Positions 10,540-33,688 of a DNA stretch of 33,762 nucleotides are shown piece after piece; position 1 is the first letter of the stretch, and the number at the start of each line of letters is the position of its first letter. The notes below the pieces were generated by a model, which was given only the letters and a program-made list of their open reading frames with translations, was not told the DNA's origin and did no database searches. A program made the translations under genes and the position numbers. The DNA is taken from positions 1-33,762 of the forward strand of contig CAJOPR010000016.1 of NCBI GenBank assembly GCA_905236395.1, written 5' to 3'. The stretch comes from an uncultured Bacilli bacterium. Lineage in GTDB: Bacteria; Bacillota_I; Bacilli_A; RFN20; CAG-826.

Positions 10540-11997
10540 ATGGCGAACTCAGAAGAACTACAAAAACAAGTAGAACAGTACGAACAAGACCTAAAAACTG
10601 GTAAGAAGAAGAGTAAGAAGAGTGTCGTTAAATACATTCTTAATATCTCTCTTGTTTTATTGGTGACCGCAGCATCTATCATCATCTCTGTTTGGGGTAA
10701 GACTCAATCAATTTGGGAAAACTTTATGTCCGCGGATATCAAGGGTGTTCTCATGATTTTAGGTGTCATGCTAGGAACTATCTTGATTCGTTCTTTTATT
10801 CTTTTTTGTTTCGCGCGCTTATACACAAGAAGATATCACTTCCATCAAGCTCTTGCTGTTGACCAAATCGGTGTTTTCTATAACGCAGTGACTCCTGGTG
10901 CTAGTGGTGGTCAAATTATGCAAGCCTATACCTATAAGAAACAAGGCTTACATATTTCTAGCGCTGTTAGTGCCTTAGCGATGTATTCCATCGTTTTCCA
11001 AATCGTTTTAATCACTTATGGATTACTTGCTTTCATCCTTAAATACGATTTGATCATGAGTATTGAATTTATCACTATCAAACTTGATAAAGTGGTGATT
11101 AATATTCCAATCTTGTTATTAACAATCCTTGGTTTTATCTTAAATATTTCCGTTATCTTAGGCGTGTTACTAATGGCGTACTGGCATGGATTCCATAACT
11201 TTGTTATGGGACCAGTCATTTCCCTATTAACTAAGTTAAGAATTGTGAAGAAACCAGATAAGACTAGAGAAGATCTAAGAATCCAGGTTGAAAACTTCAA
11301 AATTGAGTTTAGACGTTTGTGGACTAACATCCCGTTCTTTATATTGGTCGCGGTTTGTTTCGCTATCTATATGACTCTTAAGTTCTCCGTTCCATATTTC
11401 TGTGGTTTGGCGTTAGGTAGTGAGCATACATCCATCCAATATTTCTGGGATAGCGTCTTCTTAGGAAACTACCATCAGATGATTACCGGACTTATTCCAA
11501 TTCCTGGTAGTGCGGGTGTTTCTGAATACGTCTTCTCTAAACTTTTCTATAACCAATCTAACCCAGCGGAAGGTTTCTATTTCGTCAGTCAATTAACTCC
11601 TGGTGAAGAAATTCCATTTACCAAGGCCAGTGAAACCTTAACTGTTTCCGCTTTGTTACTTTGGAGAAGTATTACATTTATTATTCCTATCGTTATTGCT
11701 GGTATCACCACAGCGTTCTATCATACCAGAAACAAAGAACCAAATCAGAGATGGGAAATTCCAGATCGCGAAACATTTGTTGCCCTTCAAAGCGAGACTT
11801 ATGTCATGCGTAAAGAAGAGGTGGAAGCCCTTATTGCTACACAAACTCTCTCTAGACAAGCCATCTTAGAAAAGATGAGAGGTAATAACCGCGATAAACA
11901 TAAACCTAAAGTGGATAAAAAACCAAAACGCGATAACGCCCCGATAGATGATGACTATCATACAGTGGATATTAAAGAAGAGGATGATTCTATCTAA
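10540..11997 (+). CDS. Flippase-like integral membrane protein (LPG synthase TM domain, UPF0104/YbhN type)
   Basis: A 485-residue membrane protein of the lysylphosphatidylglycerol-synthase transmembrane (MprF N-half-like, UPF0104) family. A charged cytoplasmic N-terminus of about 37 residues precedes several hydrophobic segments. The family hallmark FYNAVTPGASGGQIMQAY lies between the early helices, and a later segment has GLIPIPGSAGVSEY. A hydrophilic, lysine/aspartate-rich C-terminal tail of about 110 residues follows. There is no aminoacyltransferase domain, so it is not a full MprF. It may translocate a lipid or glycolipid. The stop overlaps the start of a glycolipid-type glycosyltransferase (TAATG), which supports a joint membrane-lipid role. 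Confidence 0.82.
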   Translation: MANSEELQKQVEQYEQDLKTGKKKSKKSVVKYILNISLVLLVTAASIIISVWGKTQSIWENFMSADIKGVLMILGVMLGTILIRSFILFCFARLYTRRYHFHQALAVDQIGVFYNAVTPGASGGQIMQAYTYKKQGLHISSAVSALAMYSIVFQIVLITYGLLAFILKYDLIMSIEFITIKLDKVVINIPILLLTILGFILNISVILGVLLMAYWHGFHNFVMGPVISLLTKLRIVKKPDKTREDLRIQVENFKIEFRRLWTNIPFFILVAVCFAIYMTLKFSVPYFCGLALGSEHTSIQYFWDSVFLGNYHQMITGLIPIPGSAGVSEYVFSKLFYNQSNPAEGFYFVSQLTPGEEIPFTKASETLTVSALLLWRSITFIIPIVIAGITTAFYHTRNKEPNQRWEIPDRETFVALQSETYVMRKEEVEALIATQTLSRQAILEKMRGNNRDKHKPKVDKKPKRDNAPIDDDYHTVDIKEEDDSI

Positions 11998-13172
11998 TGA
12001 AAATAGCGATTTTCACTGATACATATCCTCCTTTTATCAATGGTGTTTCTACATCCGCTTTTAACTTGGTTCAAACCTTAAAAGCACATGGCCATGATGT
12101 CATCGTTGTTACCCCAAGAGTAACTGATGGAAAACTTGAATATAAAGACGGTGTTATTTGGGTTCCGGGATTAATGCTTAAATGGCTCTATGGATACCGC
12201 ATCACTAACATCTATTCTCGTAAGATTATTAAGATGCTTAAGGATTTTGGTGTGGAACTAATCCACAATCAAACCGATGTTGGTTTAGGTCAATTCTCTC
12301 GTATTGCGGGAAGACAATTGAAAGTTCCTAGCGTCTATACATATCACACAGCCTATGAAGACTATACCTATTATTTTGTTCATGGCTTGATGGACCGTAT
12401 TGGTAAAAAAGCCATGCGTGAATACGCAAAAACAGTAGCGAAGAATTGTACTGAATTTATTACTCCAAGTAATAAGACTAAAGATTATATGCGCGCTATT
12501 GGAAGCGATATCTATGTGAATGTCGTTCCTACTGGTATTGATTTTTCCATCTTTGGTGAAGATAAAGTGGATAAAGAAAAACAAGCTAAGTTCAAAGAAG
12601 AACATAACATCACCGATAAGACTAAAGTGTTCTTATTACTAGGCCGTGTTGCGAAAGAAAAGAGTATGGACTATTCCATCCGTGGCTTTGCCATGTATTT
12701 AAAAAAGCATCCAGAAGTAGACGCGAAAATGTTAGTGGTGGGTGATGGTCCACAGAAGACTGAATTGGAATTATTAGTTCATGAATTACATATAGCGGAT
12801 AAAGTAGACTTTATTGGTAAAGTTCCTGCGGAAGAAGTGCCTTTCTATTACCATCTCGCCGATATTTACACATCTGCATCTATTACCGAAACCCAAGGCT
12901 TAACATTTATGGAAGCCATGGCTAGTGGCACGATCGTTTTGGCGAGATTTGACTCCAACCTTGCAGACACAATTGTGGATGGTCAAACTGGTTTCTTCTT
13001 TACTGATGAACAATCCTTTGTCGAAAAAGCGGAACGTATCCTTTCATTAAGTGAAGAAGGTAAGAAAGCCATCGTTGACAGTGCTTATAAAACTGTGGAT
13101 ATGTATTCCATTGATAAATTCTATGAAAACATTATGGAGGTTTATAACCGTGCCCTTAGAAAATACTGGTAA
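11997..13172 (+). CDS. GT4 glycosyltransferase, probable 1,2-diacylglycerol glucosyltransferase
   Basis: A 391-residue GT-B fold glycosyltransferase of family 4. The N-terminal domain begins MKIAIFTDTYPPFINGVS, with a glycine-containing acceptor loop. The C-terminal domain carries VFLLLGRVAKEKS and the E-x7-E donor motif with Glu298 and Glu306 (ETQGLTFME). It is close in style to the monoglucosyl-diacylglycerol synthases of Acholeplasma and Gram-positive cocci, which add glucose to diacylglycerol on the cytoplasmic face. Other GT4 activities (phosphatidylinositol mannosyltransferase-like) cannot be excluded. It is coupled to the upstream flippase-like gene and overlaps recX by 23 nt. Confidence 0.85.
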   Translation: MKIAIFTDTYPPFINGVSTSAFNLVQTLKAHGHDVIVVTPRVTDGKLEYKDGVIWVPGLMLKWLYGYRITNIYSRKIIKMLKDFGVELIHNQTDVGLGQFSRIAGRQLKVPSVYTYHTAYEDYTYYFVHGLMDRIGKKAMREYAKTVAKNCTEFITPSNKTKDYMRAIGSDIYVNVVPTGIDFSIFGEDKVDKEKQAKFKEEHNITDKTKVFLLLGRVAKEKSMDYSIRGFAMYLKKHPEVDAKMLVVGDGPQKTELELLVHELHIADKVDFIGKVPAEEVPFYYHLADIYTSASITETQGLTFMEAMASGTIVLARFDSNLADTIVDGQTGFFFTDEQSFVEKAERILSLSEEGKKAIVDSAYKTVDMYSIDKFYENIMEVYNRALRKYW

Positions 13173-15421: not shown

Positions 15422-17272
15422 TTAATCGAATAGATCTGGATAGTTATCCTTGAAGTAATCGTAGATCTTTTGATCATGATACTTAATCGCTGCTTTTTCT
15501 AACCAATGTTTGGTGGAAGAAGTTTGATATGTATCATTATCTGCGATAATTCTTGCGACTTCGTTTAAGATTTCTTCTTTACGATCCGCTTCATACTTGG
15601 TGGATTCTTTAGCGAGTTTACTACCGGAGACAGCTTCTTCGATTTGAATGACATAGTATTTGCCACTTTCGTAGAAGAGGATATCATCCATTGGATCCGC
15701 ACCAGCTTGTTTGCTGGCTTTCTTTAAGTAGTACTTACCATTGATTTTGGCAACAAGTTTGGATTCGTTCGGATAGACTGTATAAGATGCAGATTCGAAT
15801 CTATCACGAACGACATCGACGTCATCTTTCTTATCTTTGTTATCTAAGATATTAGCAACACCGATGTTGAATAAACGTGATTTGATAGAATCTGGTAAGT
15901 CAGCGACACCGTTACTCTTGATGTACCAACCATCGGTTGTGTAATCTTTCTTTCTGATGTCGTTTTCTTTCATCTCTTTACCGACAGCTGCATTATATGT
16001 GTAGCTACCTGTGAAATCGCTTTCAACAGATGCATCTGTGGTATTGATGTTGTCTTTAATCTTGGCGAAGTTAGCCATCATATCACCGTAATCGGTGCCC
16101 TTGTAATAGGTGTATGATTCACCATCGTAGCCTGTGAATGTTTCTTTTGGGAACGCACCGGCATACGCAGGTACGGACATGACTGCTTCAAGATAGTCAT
16201 TTGTGCCGTTATCAACGAAACCTTTAGCAGCTTCGCTGATGGCTTTGAAGTTTGCTAATGTGATGTCAGCATCCTTCACACTGATAACATTTCTAACGAA
16301 ATATTTCATTAAGTAGTCAGCACCAGCAACGTTGTTGCTATTTTCGCTAATGGCGATGACGTTGACTTTTCTGGCGGCACTTCTACCTAAGTTGTTGTAG
16401 GATTCATCGAACAAATATTGTTCAACTAATAATGAACGATAGATTGTTGGGATGATTTCATCTTCAACATATGTGAGTGTGTCATCAGTCTTTTCTTCCA
16501 CTTGCGCTAAATCCCAAGCTTTTGGATCTTGATAGTTAGCTCTGTGCAAGTATGTAGTACTTGTAACTTCTGCATCAGCAGTAGGAACAAGTGTTGTGAA
16601 AACATCTTCTTCTTGAACTTCAGGAGTGATAACAACCTTATAGGATTCTTTTGTCAGTACTGTTGAGGAAGCATATGGATTAGCAACCTTGTATAATTGA
16701 CTTCTGAGTTCCGCTAAGAATTTCTTTTCAGAGAAATAGCCTCTGTCATTGTTATAGCTACCACCGGAGATGGAACCATAGAATGTTCTAGCAATTCTAT
16801 CTTCGATAGTGTTCCATTTTGCGATAACACGTGCATATTCACGTGCCTTGGAATCATCGTCAGTTTGACGATCACCTTTGGAATCTGTGGTCCAGAATGC
16901 TTTGTGTTTTTCGATAAATGTATCTGCTTTGGTTTTATCAGCAGATGATGCGGAAGCAGCAGCTTCTTTTAATGTGATTTCGTCTTCGCCTAAGTTATAT
17001 GGTTCAGCGATTCTGTTATATCTACCGAAAACGGAGACAGAGTATTGATATAAGACTTTATCTAAGACAGCGCTTGCTAAAGAGCCATCTCTATAAGCAT
17101 CTTCGATGATGCTCACTAAGTTGTGATAAATTTCGTCATTGCTATCAGTAAAGGAGACTAATTCATCATCATAGTTTGATGGTTTGGCTTTGATTTCGTT
17201 ACCACAAGCCACTAAGCCCATTGTAGATAAGAGGGCAACCGCTAAGATCTTTTTAAAACGATTATTTGACAT
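15422..17272 (-). CDS. Lipoprotein, PrsA/SurA-like foldase paralogue lacking an obvious parvulin core
   Basis: A 616-residue predicted lipoprotein. The signal peptide ends in the lipobox LVAC (Cys23). The beginning of the mature part (DELVSFTDSNDEIY, then a helical SurA-N-like stretch) matches in style the protein encoded just upstream, so the two are likely paralogues. The C-terminus (YYVIQIEEA, then a long amphipathic helix, then IYDYFKDNYPDLF) resembles the chaperone part of PrsA/SurA. I do not see the HIL parvulin motif of its neighbour, so it may be a chaperone without isomerase activity. The start has CCTCCTT (minus-strand AAGGAGG) at 17281-17287. It overlaps the upstream gene by 11 nt. 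Confidence 0.72.
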   Translation of the reverse strand: MSNNRFKKILAVALLSTMGLVACGNEIKAKPSNYDDELVSFTDSNDEIYHNLVSIIEDAYRDGSLASAVLDKVLYQYSVSVFGRYNRIAEPYNLGEDEITLKEAAASASSADKTKADTFIEKHKAFWTTDSKGDRQTDDDSKAREYARVIAKWNTIEDRIARTFYGSISGGSYNNDRGYFSEKKFLAELRSQLYKVANPYASSTVLTKESYKVVITPEVQEEDVFTTLVPTADAEVTSTTYLHRANYQDPKAWDLAQVEEKTDDTLTYVEDEIIPTIYRSLLVEQYLFDESYNNLGRSAARKVNVIAISENSNNVAGADYLMKYFVRNVISVKDADITLANFKAISEAAKGFVDNGTNDYLEAVMSVPAYAGAFPKETFTGYDGESYTYYKGTDYGDMMANFAKIKDNINTTDASVESDFTGSYTYNAAVGKEMKENDIRKKDYTTDGWYIKSNGVADLPDSIKSRLFNIGVANILDNKDKKDDVDVVRDRFESASYTVYPNESKLVAKINGKYYLKKASKQAGADPMDDILFYESGKYYVIQIEEAVSGSKLAKESTKYEADRKEEILNEVARIIADNDTYQTSSTKHWLEKAAIKYHDQKIYDYFKDNYPDLFD

Positions 17273-19301
17273 AGCATTTTCCTCCTTCTTTATAAGCGTC
17301 TTCGACTGCTTTCTTTAATTCAGCACGGTTTTGTTCTGTAACAGCTTCGCCGGTGATTGCTTGAATTTCAGCATCGGTTAAGTCGCGAATGTCTTTTGTA
17401 AAGGCAATCTTACAACCTTCTGAGACAACACGGTTTAAACCATGTCTATAGAAGTCTTGTGTTTCGAGTAATTCGAAGTATGTCTTCCAAACTTCTTGGA
17501 TGCCTTCATCTTGATCGGCTTTATTCTTTTCTCTTTGTAATTCAATATAGCCATCGATGAGATCAAAGAGTTTCTTTGTCTTAGCATCTTCTTTATTGAC
17601 GTCATCTCTTGCAGATAAGACTTCGTATAAACGGTAGTCATATGTGCTATCAAATCCTTTAATAGCGGATTTAACTGTTTCTGCACGAGAGTTGTATTCA
17701 GATTTATTCTCAGAATAAATGAAGTCAACGTATGTGTGTTCACCAGCAGGAATTGTTGGGTAATCACTATCGCTTGGAATAGCAGTGGTGTAGTAGTCTT
17801 CTAATTTGACAGCAGAATTGAAATCATAAATTGATTTCTCAACGATCATGAGGTGGATACCGAATTGGCTACGAACACCGATGATGACATTGCCCTTTTC
17901 ATCACAAAGGACTTTTTCATTACTGCCGTTATTGAAACCAGCGTTGGCTTTGAAGCCTGCTAATGTGGCGTAATCGATTTCTTGCTCGGTCTTGTCATAC
18001 TTCACATATGGATCTTTATTTGCGTAGTATTCAACACTATCGGTTGTGTCCAAAATATCTCTGATGGTGTCATCAGTGATTTCTGAATTATTTGGACGAG
18101 AACCATTTGTAATAACAAAGATGCTGTGGTTGTTGAGATATCTATTCCACAATAAGTTTCTTGGATATACTGCGGATTTACCATCTTCAACTGGTAAACC
18201 AGTTACTTCATTATTTTCTAAGTTTGCAACATCACCTAATTCTTTGAAAACAGAATAAGGAATTTCCACAATGCCTCTTGCCGCCATATATTCTTTAGCG
18301 GTTTCACCTGGAGTGTGGATTGTCTCATCGTCTGCTCTGTGTGCGGTGTATCCAGGCATGGATGTGCCTAGACCTAACGCAGCGTCGATTTCAGAGCTTA
18401 CACCTGTATTCTTTTTAACTGCGTCATAGGCATAAATACCTAATTGGAATTCATTGACCATTCCGAGTTTGCCACCAGAAATAGCGTTGGTCATAAGACC
18501 GACGTCACCATATGAGGAAGCAGATGAATCTTCACTCTTCTTTTGGGCAACTTCACCGAAGGTCATTGTGCCTTTGGCTAATAATTCCACTGTTTCGCTT
18601 AATAATTTAGCTTGATCTGCACTGACGGATCCACGTGTGTATTCGTTTGCGCCGTCTTCGACTTTAACTAAAATATGGCGTACATGGTATGGGTATCTAG
18701 AATTGGCCTTTGTGCTCTTCGCGGATGTGCCGGCTGCGGATGCGCCTTCTTTCGAACTAGACCATAAACCTAAATATTCACGTCTGAGTTCATCCTTGTG
18801 TTGCTCATAGTACCAATCTTCGATTTCAGATTTTTCTAATTGGTAGATGTAGTATTGGAGAAGTTCTTCTTCATCCTTTACACCTTTTTCTGAGAGAATG
18901 GCCTGCCATTCTGTCTTGTAATCGGTGCCATTAGTTTCTGCATTTTGTGAAGCGGTTTCTTTAGAACCTCTCACATTATCTTTGGCTTCTTTGACAATCG
19001 CATTGTAGTTCTTCTTAACGCCCTTTAATCCATTTGGGTCGCTGCCGTCTTTGTCTTTTTGAAAGGCATGACGGATAAGAACTTCCATAACTGACTCATA
19101 GTATTTGGAAATACCTGAGGAACTCTTCATATAGTCATCGTACATATCGTCGATGCGGATGCTGAGTTCTTCATCGCCGTAACCTGTAAAGTTAACCAAG
19201 TTTTCCTTATTACTTGTAACTTTTGCAGCGTCACAGGCGGACAAAGCCATAGTAGCAATGAAACTAGTAACTAATCCGATAGATAGTTTACTTTTTTTCA
19301 T
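17262..19301 (-). CDS. Lipoprotein foldase with parvulin-type (PpiC) prolyl isomerase domain, PrsA-like
   Basis: A 679-residue predicted lipoprotein with signal peptide and lipobox LSAC. Start ATG 19301 is chosen for the AAGGAGT site just upstream and for the signal peptide; the in-frame extension to 19370 has neither. The middle carries a parvulin-like domain: YHVRHILVKVEDG, then LAKGTMTFGEVAQKKSEDSSASSYGDVGLM. The end of the isomerase domain resembles GIHLMIVEKS. Long insertions make it about twice the size of Bacillus PrsA. It should act outside the membrane, folding secreted proteins such as the Ig-repeat protein; that link is inference. Its promoter is at 19339-19367, divergent from suf. 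Confidence 0.82.
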   Translation of the reverse strand: MKKSKLSIGLVTSFIATMALSACDAAKVTSNKENLVNFTGYGDEELSIRIDDMYDDYMKSSSGISKYYESVMEVLIRHAFQKDKDGSDPNGLKGVKKNYNAIVKEAKDNVRGSKETASQNAETNGTDYKTEWQAILSEKGVKDEEELLQYYIYQLEKSEIEDWYYEQHKDELRREYLGLWSSSKEGASAAGTSAKSTKANSRYPYHVRHILVKVEDGANEYTRGSVSADQAKLLSETVELLAKGTMTFGEVAQKKSEDSSASSYGDVGLMTNAISGGKLGMVNEFQLGIYAYDAVKKNTGVSSEIDAALGLGTSMPGYTAHRADDETIHTPGETAKEYMAARGIVEIPYSVFKELGDVANLENNEVTGLPVEDGKSAVYPRNLLWNRYLNNHSIFVITNGSRPNNSEITDDTIRDILDTTDSVEYYANKDPYVKYDKTEQEIDYATLAGFKANAGFNNGSNEKVLCDEKGNVIIGVRSQFGIHLMIVEKSIYDFNSAVKLEDYYTTAIPSDSDYPTIPAGEHTYVDFIYSENKSEYNSRAETVKSAIKGFDSTYDYRLYEVLSARDDVNKEDAKTKKLFDLIDGYIELQREKNKADQDEGIQEVWKTYFELLETQDFYRHGLNRVVSEGCKIAFTKDIRDLTDAEIQAITGEAVTEQNRAELKKAVEDAYKEGGKCYVK

Positions 19302-19338
19302 CTTTTCTCGTACTCCTTTTACTGAACATAGCGGTAAT

Positions 19339-19367
19339 ATTCTAAATATTATGGTTTTTAATTGCAA
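19339..19367 (-). promoter_or_regulatory. Promoter of the foldase lipoprotein operon
   Basis: On the minus strand: -35 TTGCAA (19367-19362, 4 of 6), 17-bp spacer, -10 TAGAAT (19344-19339, 5 of 6). It is divergent from the suf promoter across about 70 bases. Confidence 0.6.
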
Positions 19368-19383
19368 CAACTAATTAAAGATT

Positions 19384-30289: not shown

Positions 30290-30574
30290 ATGTCTAAATT
30301 AAACAAACGCGACCTTATTGAACAGGTATCCGAAAAAGCCCATGTCAGCAAGAAAGATGCTGAAAGCGCAATCGATGCAGCCTTTGCTTTAATTGAAAAG
30401 TCATTATTAGAGGGACAAGAAGTCAACATTACTAACTTCGGTTCCTTCTTACCTAAAACTCGTCAAGCGAGAGACGGTACTGATCCAAAGAGTCACAAAA
30501 GAATTACGATTAAAGAGGCTAGAACAGTATCATTTAAATTATCGAAGCAGTTCAAGGCTAAGATTAATCGTTAA
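30290..30574 (+). CDS. hup: DNA-binding protein HU
   Basis: A 94-residue HU-family nucleoid protein. The N-terminal helices begin MSKLNKRDLIEQVSEKAHVSKKDAESAID. The beta-arm region is INITNFGSFLPKTRQARDGTDPKSHKRI, with arm residues usual for HU, and the C-terminal FKLSKQFKAKIN follows. It bends and packages DNA. The gene follows der as in many Bacilli but has its own extended -10 and terminator, consistent with higher expression than the genes before it. Confidence 0.96.
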   Translation: MSKLNKRDLIEQVSEKAHVSKKDAESAIDAAFALIEKSLLEGQEVNITNFGSFLPKTRQARDGTDPKSHKRITIKEARTVSFKLSKQFKAKINR

Positions 30575-30576
30575 AA

Positions 30577-30604
30577 AAAGAGAACCCAAAGGGTTCTTTT
30601 TTTA
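30577..30604. terminator. Bidirectional terminator between HU and the asparagine-synthetase-like gene
   Basis: AGAACCC/GGGTTCT (30581-30587 and 30591-30597) around AAA, with an A-run on the left and T-run on the right. The T-run overlaps the end of the converging minus-strand gene. Confidence 0.85.
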
Positions 30605-31660
30605 TTTATCAACAATCTCGTTTAGGAACTTCTCAAGTACCCAGATTAACCATTTCTGATTTCCTGTGAATTGAGACATATCTAAGTTTTCTTTAAACTC
30701 AGGTCTTGTTGGTCCTTTCCAAGTCTTGAAATATTCATCAACAGGACGTGGCATTGGAATCTTTTCAGGAATAGGAATTTCTGGATAACATTTTCTGAAT
30801 AATTCTCTAATCAAATATTTCGATTCACCCGCTCTAATTCTTGGTAGATCGAGTGGTTCTGCCATCTTCACGTAAGCACTTGGATCGAATAGTGGAACGT
30901 ACTTCATTTTTGCGGTGATAACAGCGTTACAATATGAGCCACTGGATTCATGTGCAAAGACATCATCGATGAACTTCAAATAGTCAATTTTGTTACCTGG
31001 TAATCTATATCTTTCATAGAGATAATCGATATCAACAGGTTCCTTCAAAACCTTCTTTGGATCAACGAATGTATAGAACTTTTTCCAGTCATCGAAATCC
31101 CAATCTCTGCTGAGCATTTTATCCATACCACCGAAGACTAAATCACTTCCATCAGCGGCAACGATTTGTTCGACGCCATCTTTCTTTGCTTGAAGTGCGG
31201 CCTCCATAATTTGTGGTTCGATGGAATGAACTGGAGCGCCTTTTTCTTTCATTAAAGGAATGAGATTTTTCTCAACAACATTCCAGTCGATATCGACATA
31301 GTGGAGATTGAGTTTATAGTGTTTGGCGTATAGTTCCGCACGATGTAAATCATCTTGTCCATATTTGCCACCGAGGAAGCGGAATGTGTATGCATCTGTA
31401 CCTGGTTTTAAGAACGCGGCAAGGCATGCGCTATCCATACCACCAGAGAGCAAAATACCTAATTTAACTGTCTTTTGTCTCTCTTCAAAAAACTTCTTAT
31501 AAGCTGCTGCAATATCATCAGCAGTCCACACTAAAACTCTCTTTTCTTCTGGATATGGAATGTCTAGAGTGTGGTGTAAGCCTTCTTTGAATTCAACCCC
31601 GTCTTTTTCGATGTAACGGAAGGCGAGGAAACTCGACATACAATACTTTTTATCGACCAT
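30602..31660 (-). CDS. Asparagine-synthetase-like enzyme without glutaminase domain
   Basis: A 352-residue protein matching only the C-terminal synthetase half of asparagine synthetase B. It has the ATP-pyrophosphatase P-loop LSGGMDS (72-77), a later ADGSDLVFGGMDK equivalent to the family GxGSDELFGGY, and ESKYLIRELFRKCYP. The first about 35 residues look like the linker that normally ends the glutaminase domain. The N-terminal Cys2 Ntn glutaminase domain is absent. The start at ATG 31660 has GGAGG 8 bases upstream, overlapping the stop of the amidohydrolase gene, so the short form is natural. It would adenylate a carboxylate and attack it with ammonia or an amine. Asparagine formation, or a beta-lactam-synthetase-like reaction, are both possible. 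It is the last of three coupled genes. Confidence 0.82.
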   Translation of the reverse strand: MVDKKYCMSSFLAFRYIEKDGVEFKEGLHHTLDIPYPEEKRVLVWTADDIAAAYKKFFEERQKTVKLGILLSGGMDSACLAAFLKPGTDAYTFRFLGGKYGQDDLHRAELYAKHYKLNLHYVDIDWNVVEKNLIPLMKEKGAPVHSIEPQIMEAALQAKKDGVEQIVAADGSDLVFGGMDKMLSRDWDFDDWKKFYTFVDPKKVLKEPVDIDYLYERYRLPGNKIDYLKFIDDVFAHESSGSYCNAVITAKMKYVPLFDPSAYVKMAEPLDLPRIRAGESKYLIRELFRKCYPEIPIPEKIPMPRPVDEYFKTWKGPTRPEFKENLDMSQFTGNQKWLIWVLEKFLNEIVDK

Positions 31661-31673
31661 TAATTGATCCTCC

Positions 31674-33242
31674 TTAGAACTTATTATGTGAGAACAAACC
31701 ATGGAAGATAATTCCAGGGATTGAACGTGTTTGTTTTGTGTATGATTTACCACCTAATATGGTATCAACAACTTCTAGTTTCGCTAATTCATCATTAGAA
31801 CATTCATATGGGTTTCTAGATAAGATAACCATATCAGCAATCTTGCCTTCTTCTAAAGAACCTCTTTCTTTTTCATCAAAGGTGATAAAGGCGCCATTAT
31901 AGGTACACATTCTTAAAGCATCCTTGATGTTCATAGATTCTTTTGGATTGGAGTGATTAACGGCTTTGTATAACCAAACCAATGGTTCTGGATCTGTACA
32001 TGGTGCATCACTACCTGCACCCACAACGCATCCAAGCTTATTGAATGTTTCAATTGGATTGAGCCTATTTGCTCTTTCTTCGCCAAGAATTGACGTAATA
32101 TACGTCATTGGTTCTTGTGCCCAGTTATCAAAGGCGATTTGCATTGGCAATTGAATGTGATACTTTTTACAAATTTCTAAACCTTCTTTAGTAGGCAAAC
32201 AAGCGTGAATGATGCCATGTCTATGATCTTCCCTTGGGAAGTCATCTAATGCCGCTTTTAAGGCGCGTGTGGCTTGATCAAACGCTTTATCACCAATTGC
32301 ATGCATTTCAATCTGTAAGCCCGCTCTATTGGCTTTCTTACAGAAATCTATAACTTTTTCGTCTGAATAGTATAAAACACCGCAGTTTTTCGGATCGTTT
32401 AAGTATGGTTCATTCATTGAAGCGTCAATTGAGCCATAGCATCCATCAAGAGCGCATGCGAAACATCCACCGATACGTGTAAGCTTTCTATTCTTGGCGA
32501 CTTTAATGTTCATGGATTGAGGGAAAATTCTCAATTGGAAGCCGTTTTGCGCGGATTTTGCCATCATTTTTTCTAAAGTGATGTCCGCGTTAAGTGGGAA
32601 TCCAACACCGCTAACAGTATGGACCATACCTATACCTTTGCTGGCTTGATAATCCATAGAACGTTGCATGGATTTCATTAATTGGATAATAGAGATTGAG
32701 TTTGTGACATAGTCACTAACTTTAAAGAACGCTTCCTGGTTCATTTCACCGGTATCTGGATGATAGCCTCTTAAGCCTTTAACTTTTTTATCGATCTTCT
32801 TAAGAAGAACCGAGTTAACGACACAAGCGTGTCCATCATATTTAACCAAAAATAGTGGTTTCTTTGGACAAACTTTATCTAATTCTTCTCTTGTTACTAA
32901 GTGACCTTCTTCCACTGAATATGGGGAAGCTCCAAAAGCAACAATGAGTTTGTTCTTGCTCTTATTTACAAATTCTTCAACCATTTTGACGATCTCTTTG
33001 TTTGAACGAGCGTTCATAACATTAAGACCATCGTGGAAGATGCTATATGATGCAAAGTGTTGATGGGTATCGACGAATGATGGAATTAAACATTTTTCGC
33101 CGAGTTCAACAACTTCAGCGTCTTTATATTGTTCTGGAAGTTCATTTCCGACAAAAACTATTCTTCCCTTATCTTCAACAAGGTATTTGAAAACATCGTC
33201 ATTTTTGTTGACTGATAATATTGATCCTTTATAAATTTTCAT
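31674..33242 (-). CDS. YtcJ-like metal-dependent amidohydrolase
   Basis: A 522-residue amidohydrolase of the YtcJ/Amidohydro_3 type. The start of the barrel has DTHQH (His60, His62) as the first metal pair. HAIGDKA carries a later metal-region His, and GSDAPCTDPEP the typical late Asp. C-terminal GSLEEGKIADMVILSRNP is the usual end of the flanking beta-sandwich. The family hydrolyses N-acyl or cyclic amide bonds in small molecules; the substrate is unknown. It starts at the last base of the cytidylyltransferase stop (TAATG) behind AAGGAAG. Its stop overlaps the ribosome site of the asparagine-synthetase-like gene. All three genes thus appear translationally coupled. Confidence 0.85.
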   Translation of the reverse strand: MKIYKGSILSVNKNDDVFKYLVEDKGRIVFVGNELPEQYKDAEVVELGEKCLIPSFVDTHQHFASYSIFHDGLNVMNARSNKEIVKMVEEFVNKSKNKLIVAFGASPYSVEEGHLVTREELDKVCPKKPLFLVKYDGHACVVNSVLLKKIDKKVKGLRGYHPDTGEMNQEAFFKVSDYVTNSISIIQLMKSMQRSMDYQASKGIGMVHTVSGVGFPLNADITLEKMMAKSAQNGFQLRIFPQSMNIKVAKNRKLTRIGGCFACALDGCYGSIDASMNEPYLNDPKNCGVLYYSDEKVIDFCKKANRAGLQIEMHAIGDKAFDQATRALKAALDDFPREDHRHGIIHACLPTKEGLEICKKYHIQLPMQIAFDNWAQEPMTYITSILGEERANRLNPIETFNKLGCVVGAGSDAPCTDPEPLVWLYKAVNHSNPKESMNIKDALRMCTYNGAFITFDEKERGSLEEGKIADMVILSRNPYECSNDELAKLEVVDTILGGKSYTKQTRSIPGIIFHGLFSHNKF

Positions 33243-33688
33243 TACTTATCTTCCTTTGGGCTTGATTGGAATTTATCTAATGCAGCGTTGATTTTTGTTG
33301 ATGATATACCTTTGGTATATGGGAAATAAATGATCTTGATACCAGCAGCATCAAATTCTTTCTCATATGCTTTCCATTTGTCTGTACCGTACCAGTCGTC
33401 ACCAACGAATAACATTGTGGCTCCTAGTTTCTTACACATACTTAATTTATCCATATCATATTGTGGGACTGCAGCATCCACGTATTTGCATGAACGCACG
33501 ATCTCAATACGATCTTCAAAAGGAATCATGGCGTGTTTGCCTTTATAGGTGACTAGTTCATCAACGGTAACTCCGACGATGAGCTTATCGCACATTCCTT
33601 TTGCGTTCTTTAATAAGTTGAGGTGACCAATGTGAAATAGGTCATAAACCCCAGCGGTATAACCGATTACTAATTTCTTTTCTTCCAT
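33242..33688 (-). CDS. TagD-like cytidylyltransferase/adenylyltransferase
   Basis: A 148-residue nucleotidyltransferase of the glycerol-3-phosphate cytidylyltransferase (TagD) superfamily. The signature GVYDLFHIGHLNLLKNAK holds the HxGH motif. Later ISSTKI corresponds to the RTxGISTT-type motif of TagD. It would couple CTP (or ATP) to a phosphorylated small molecule. A CDP-glycerol role is the closest known function, but no teichoic-acid gene is in the window and the partners here are unusual. It is first in the operon, with an AGGA site upstream and a promoter overlapping a palindrome. Confidence 0.85.
   Translation of the reverse strand: MEEKKLVIGYTAGVYDLFHIGHLNLLKNAKGMCDKLIVGVTVDELVTYKGKHAMIPFEDRIEIVRSCKYVDAAVPQYDMDKLSMCKKLGATMLFVGDDWYGTDKWKAYEKEFDAAGIKIIYFPYTKGISSTKINAALDKFQSSPKEDK

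Follow-up and report, generated by a model that had tools for sequence, protein, structure and literature searches.

A cytidylyltransferase paired with a glutaminase-less AsnB-like ligase: a candidate module for amide-bearing surface headgroups

A TagD-like cytidylyltransferase and an AsnB-like amide ligase are encoded together at the right end of the window (the whole 33,762-nucleotide stretch analysed, which is one entire contig, C16, of a 978 kb, 79% complete metagenome-assembled genome of an uncultured Bacilli bacterium), and the two constitute a conserved pair that recurs in distant bacteria. With somewhat better than even confidence, the pair can be thought of as a two-enzyme module making a CDP-activated, amide-bearing headgroup, which a LicD- or TagF-type transferase attaches to a surface glycan.

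Three minus-strand genes form the operon at this end of the window. Their positions and junctions are as an earlier note on this DNA had described them, and all are seen in the sequence:

33242..33688, minus strand: TagD-like cytidylyltransferase, 148 aa; PF01467 (CTP_transf_like), Pfam 5.3e-21
31674..33242, minus strand: Amidohydro_3 (YtcJ-like) hydrolase; Pfam 9.6e-56; co-transcribed with the pair in the window
31660..31676, minus strand: ribosome-binding site AAGGAGG, before the ATG of the AsnB-like gene and overlapping the amidohydrolase stop; sequence reading
30602..31660, minus strand: AsnB-like amide ligase without glutaminase domain, 352 aa; PF00733 (Asn_synthase), Pfam 3.5e-13
30573..30604, no strand assigned: probable intrinsic terminator, GAACCC-AAA-GGGTTC between A and T runs; sequence reading

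The TagD-like gene ends in TAATG, a one-base overlap with the start of the amidohydrolase gene, and the Shine-Dalgarno sequence of the AsnB-like gene overlaps the TAA of the amidohydrolase. The start of the AsnB-like gene is placed at the ATG at 31660 and not at the GTG upstream, since nearly all relatives have the same M-x-D-K start. The operon and the HU gene are convergent, and the hairpin between them is probably a terminator common to both. (Two large minus-strand ORFs of the window, at 15422-17272 and 17262-19370, encode 616 and 702 aa; they have no NCBIfam match at E 1e-20.) The window runs only 74 bp past the start of the TagD-like gene and, because it is a full contig, sequence upstream of the operon's first gene is absent.

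Searched with only the AsnB-like protein as query, 84,980 species genomes yield 33 loci, across Bacilli, Clostridia and Bacteroidales. In every one of them a TagD-like partner (57-91% identity) adjoins the AsnB-like gene, is fused to it or, in the decayed cluster L039, lies a few kb off. Five loci (L011, L013, L016, L032, L037) encode single-protein AsnB-TagD fusions, AsnB first, and a second, divergent fused clade exists within the window's own family (L003-L005 and L071, closed genome G329). The suggestion that the two enzymes serve one pathway thus stands, on linkage or fusion in all 33 loci. The earlier note had named joint conservation of all three genes as a point on which its proposal would turn; that check has been run, and the trio is not conserved, whereas the pair is. 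The conserved unit is the cytidylyltransferase with the AsnB-like enzyme. Among close relatives of the window genome the pair is rare: of 113 other genomes from its family and order, 5 have an AsnB-like match (one of the five a fragment), and the closest carrier of the pair is genome G063, on the same contig as locus L007. Most loci are capsule or EPS clusters, in which glycosyltransferases, flippases and sugar transferases are also encoded. A plain asparagine synthetase using ammonia, present in the operon by chance, would have the AsnB fold and catalytic residues that are described below; on the other hand, it would not be linked or fused to a cytidylyltransferase at every locus, in polysaccharide clusters, and the AsnB-like protein scores 32.9 bits against TIGR01536 (AsnB), where the cut-off is 267.1. 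This explanation merits next to no credence.

The pair is mobile, being found in several phyla, on plasmids and in phages. Six Lactiplantibacillus plantarum plasmids, conjugative or mobilizable, carry it. The p83-18.1 EPS cluster comprises Wzz, CpsD, CpsB, a sugar transferase, three glycosyltransferases, EpsG, the TagF-like, TagD-like and AsnB-like proteins and a flippase; the last three before the flippase are the only non-glycosyl biosynthetic genes of the L. plantarum EPS cluster. Bacteroidota and Bacillota TagD-like proteins are intermixed in a tree, some of them ~80% identical, which implies transfer between phyla. AsnB-like proteins separate into several clades, and most of their TagD-like partners stay ~75-85% identical. 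INPHARED phage records contain no match to the AsnB-like protein; viral contigs do, and in L133, L134 and L136 the AsnB-like and TagD-like genes lie a few kb from that of the major head protein (phrog_1357), in cassettes that also hold split transketolase or sugar epimerase genes. The gene rows of two further contigs, possibly phage, read LicD, TagD-like, AsnB-like, DUF362 (L132) and AsnB-like, DUF362, TagD-like, LicD (L131); a DUF362 gene directly adjoins the pair in these as well as in L008, L029 and L033. Two differing AsnB-like copies occur in tandem with one TagD-like gene in L008, L022, L026, L027, L029 and L033, which suggests more than one product, or a heteromer.

The distribution of the amidohydrolase is of another kind. 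By tblastn over the 33 loci plus the window, the window and L007/G063 alone have it within the operon. Its orthologs, at 63-69% identity, are in genomes G055, G026, G022, G098 and G086 (L125:6066-7634, L126:5832-7400, L127:4546-6090, L128:6151-7716, L129:6186-7820), none of which has the pair; each ortholog adjoins an NTP-transferase/choline-kinase fusion gene, and LicD is close by in three of the five loci. Judged by this context, the amidohydrolase belongs with LicD/choline-type headgroup loci of the window's lineage, and the window's operon probably acquired it from a locus of that type. (L125:9400-11280, in a LicD/choline-kinase locus, encodes a fusion of an NTP transferase with an octopine-dehydrogenase-like domain, and this fusion may be the maker of an N-(1-carboxyethyl) amino-alcohol headgroup.) The earlier note had treated the trio as one unit, in which the amidohydrolase could free an amine and the AsnB-like enzyme could attach that amine to a cytidylyl-activated headgroup. 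The coupling of the genes in one operon, retained in L007, and the recurrence of amidohydrolase orthologs in LicD/choline-kinase loci speak for this arrangement, but its confinement to the window and a single other locus and the orthologs in five pair-less genomes make it improbable; since those orthologs occur apart from the pair, the amidohydrolase is unlikely to be a general supplier of amine.

What recurs beside the pair is a transferase. LicD (PF04991) or Glyphos_transf (PF04464, TagF-like) directly adjoins the pair in 27 of the 33 loci and is no more than three genes away in 29. LicD is on the same contig as the pair in all seven other same-class genomes carrying the pair, of those searched. 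In closed genome G329 it lies 10 bp upstream of the AsnB-TagD fusion gene, and in L007, the nearest relative, a divergent LicD gene precedes the start of the TagD-like gene by 73 bp. The window's own LicD/TagF partner would lie beyond the contig end (LicD being known from L007), and the earlier note missed it because the contig ends there. Members of the TagD-like subfamily also stand beside LicD or TagF-like genes without AsnB (L054, L055, L074, L118, L124), which makes AsnB look like an accessory to a CDP-headgroup system.

The TagD-like protein scores 88.6 bits against TIGR01518 (TagD), under the curated equivalog cut-off of 165.4. Its HxGH nucleotidyltransferase motif is present (it reads HIGH in the window, and both H and the G are invariant in A2), its signature is YTKGISST in place of the RTEGISTT (RTxGISTT) of TagD, and Met occupies the position of TagD W74. 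The nearest solved relatives by profile are ECT, TagD and the Fom1 cytidylyltransferase (CyTase). In L009 a true TagD adjoins the TagD-like gene, which implies that the substrate of the latter is probably different from that of TagD; plain glycerol-3-phosphate was rejected as a candidate on this ground and on that of the signature. The proposal that the cytidylyltransferase activates a headgroup that gets amidated is probably right.

The AsnB-like protein had been described as a synthetase without its glutamine-hydrolysing half, and in this Pfam and an alignment of 44 relatives agree. No N-terminal glutaminase (GATase) domain with catalytic Cys is matched in any of the 33 AsnB-like members. 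The AlphaFold model (pLDDT 92) has human ASNS, AsnB and carbapenam synthetase as its top PDB folds, a likeness of fold only, with TM 0.4-0.5 to the query. The SGGxDS pyrophosphate loop and the invariant Asp are kept in 44 of 44 relatives, except for one Gly-to-Ser change in the loop, as is the catalytic Lys that aligns with K449, plasmid and phage copies included; the position equivalent to E348 is Glu or Asp in 37 of 44 (K449 and E348 in AsnB numbering). That this last position is not strictly kept would accord with a catalytically dead protein serving as regulator or scaffold of the cytidylyltransferase, and it also counts against the module reading. A dead protein is nevertheless very improbable, given conservation of the pyrophosphate loop and catalytic Lys, and given that a canonical full-length enzyme takes its place in genome G225.

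In that genome a full-length AsnB (604 aa, beginning MCGIAG, with GATase_7; 402.8 bits against TIGR01536, over the cut-off of 267.1) is translationally coupled to a TagD-like gene whose product is 74% identical to a family member, and this pair adjoins a flippase-TagF fusion gene. AsnB-like proteins begin near a YL..R motif that aligns, by eye, with the post-glutaminase linker of the full-length homolog P0004, and hhalign aligns the synthetase part over its entire length (E 1.1e-12). A start at the linker is as expected if the AsnB-like enzyme has lost a glutaminase domain. The glutamine-dependent AsnB of G225 is the strongest hint that ammonia is the nucleophile, but a full-length homolog beside a TagD-like gene is found in this one genome only, which also weighs against the module reading.

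The nucleophile might alternatively be an organic amine (an amino alcohol, amino sugar or amino acid). The AsnB-like enzyme has no glutaminase domain, its clades are diverse next to a nearly constant TagD-like partner, and there is precedent in the amidation of glucuronate with serinol phosphate by Cj1438C in the Campylobacter capsule (PMC11800397). A HisC-like class I/II aminotransferase is beside the pair in L023 (11258-12397) and, in L014 (8797-9915), lies between the two genes, in the place that the amidohydrolase has in the window. Yet an amine-making gene is missing from most loci and from the L. plantarum cluster, and G225 has its full glutamine-dependent AsnB; an organic amine is unlikely, if by no means negligible. 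Since AsnB-like clades vary and TagD-like partners vary little, different clades may take different second substrates.

For the module as favoured here, the chemistry and order of steps that we infer, as distinct from the linkage, fusion, residues and partner swap that are observed, would be these. The TagD-like enzyme would form CDP-X from CTP and X-P, a phosphorylated acid; the AsnB-like enzyme would adenylate the carboxylate of X with ATP, before or after cytidylylation, and capture ammonia to form the amide; and the LicD- or TagF-type transferase would pass the X-amide phosphate to a capsule, EPS or glycolipid acceptor. (The closest NCBIfam match of window positions 11997-13172 is alpha-monoglucosyldiacylglycerol synthase, at 248 bits against a cut-off of 400; LicD could therefore have a glycolipid as its acceptor in this organism.) The p83-18.1 cluster is devoid of any other headgroup-making gene, and X-P should accordingly come from central metabolism. 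The best fit is 2- or 3-phosphoglycerate, with CDP-glyceramide and glyceramide phosphate as product, because it is an acid of central metabolism that can be amidated, and a CDP-glycerate donor and glyceramide phosphate are both known: CDP-glycerate is the established activated donor made by CpgD (PMC12275187), and D-glyceramide 2-phosphate is an O-antigen substituent of Providencia alcalifaciens O22, as cited in PMC6222762. This assignment of X is a guess, with an appreciable but minority chance of being right. X may also vary, as split transketolase genes beside some phage versions suggest. PhpF, a PF01467 enzyme, activates phosphonoformate (PMC6697681), which means that PF01467 enzymes can take small acidic phosphorus compounds. 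A phosphonate substrate is nonetheless unlikely: PEP mutase is absent from all eight genomes searched, with positive controls found, and among the 33 loci occurs at L039 alone (981-2573, as a fusion with an NTP transferase; the cluster there also includes a TagD-like gene and a broken AsnB-like gene).

Each component has known counterparts. Wall teichoic acid synthesis with glycerol phosphate by TagD/TagF also combines a PF01467 enzyme with a Glyphos_transf protein in surface-glycan loci, but the TagD-like protein departs from TagD in score and signature, and an amide ligase is added. The LicC/LicD phosphocholine system likewise makes a CDP-headgroup by means of a cytidylyltransferase and transfers it with LicD; in contrast, the present cytidylyltransferase has a TagD-like and not a LicC fold (MobA-like/COG1213), the module includes the AsnB-like ligase, and no choline kinase was seen to recur with the pair. 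Among the phosphonate-pathway enzymes Fom1, PntC and PhpF, PF01467 is shared by Fom1 and PhpF, and Fom1 also has the PYTxGISST motif in common with the TagD-like protein; fusions of cytidylyltransferases with partner enzymes are common in those pathways (PMC6697681). The partner here is an amide ligase, and PEP mutase is lacking from the eight genomes searched and, L039 apart, from the loci. CpgD, the phosphoglycerate cytidylyltransferase of Caulobacter, produces the CDP-glycerate that is proposed as precursor for the module, but its fold differs from that of the TagD-like protein, and homology was rejected on this ground; its authors report no homology to TagD (PMC12275187). AsnB, beta-lactam synthetase and carbapenam synthetase share the synthetase fold and catalytic residues with the AsnB-like enzyme, which differs in lacking the glutaminase domain and in being tied or fused to a cytidylyltransferase. 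Campylobacter Cj1438C also forms an ATP-dependent amide bond for capsule decoration; its substrate is an in-chain sugar acid, joined to serinol phosphate or ethanolamine phosphate with no CDP activation (PMC11800397), unlike the CDP-activated headgroup proposed here. The literature searched holds no description of the pair, of AsnB with LicD, or of CDP-glyceramide. As far as searched, then, the kinds of component are known and their combination is undescribed.

Phosphate headgroups of bacterial glycans (choline, glycerol, ribitol) influence host recognition, immune sensing and phage adsorption. If the reading is true, the module adds an amide-bearing headgroup through a small, portable gene set, and many genes of gut bacteria and lactobacilli that are named only 'asparagine synthase C-terminal domain' or 'adenylyltransferase/cytidyltransferase family' would acquire a role. 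The location of the pair next to genes for phage heads points to use of the module by phages too, to alter the host surface or their own particles. Stated at its broadest, and with prospects a little short of even, the proposal is that primary-amide headgroups, for example glyceramide phosphate, form a novel class of surface decoration, and that a cytidylyltransferase and an ammonia ligase, a dedicated pair spread across phyla, plasmids and phages, would make them in CDP-linked form.
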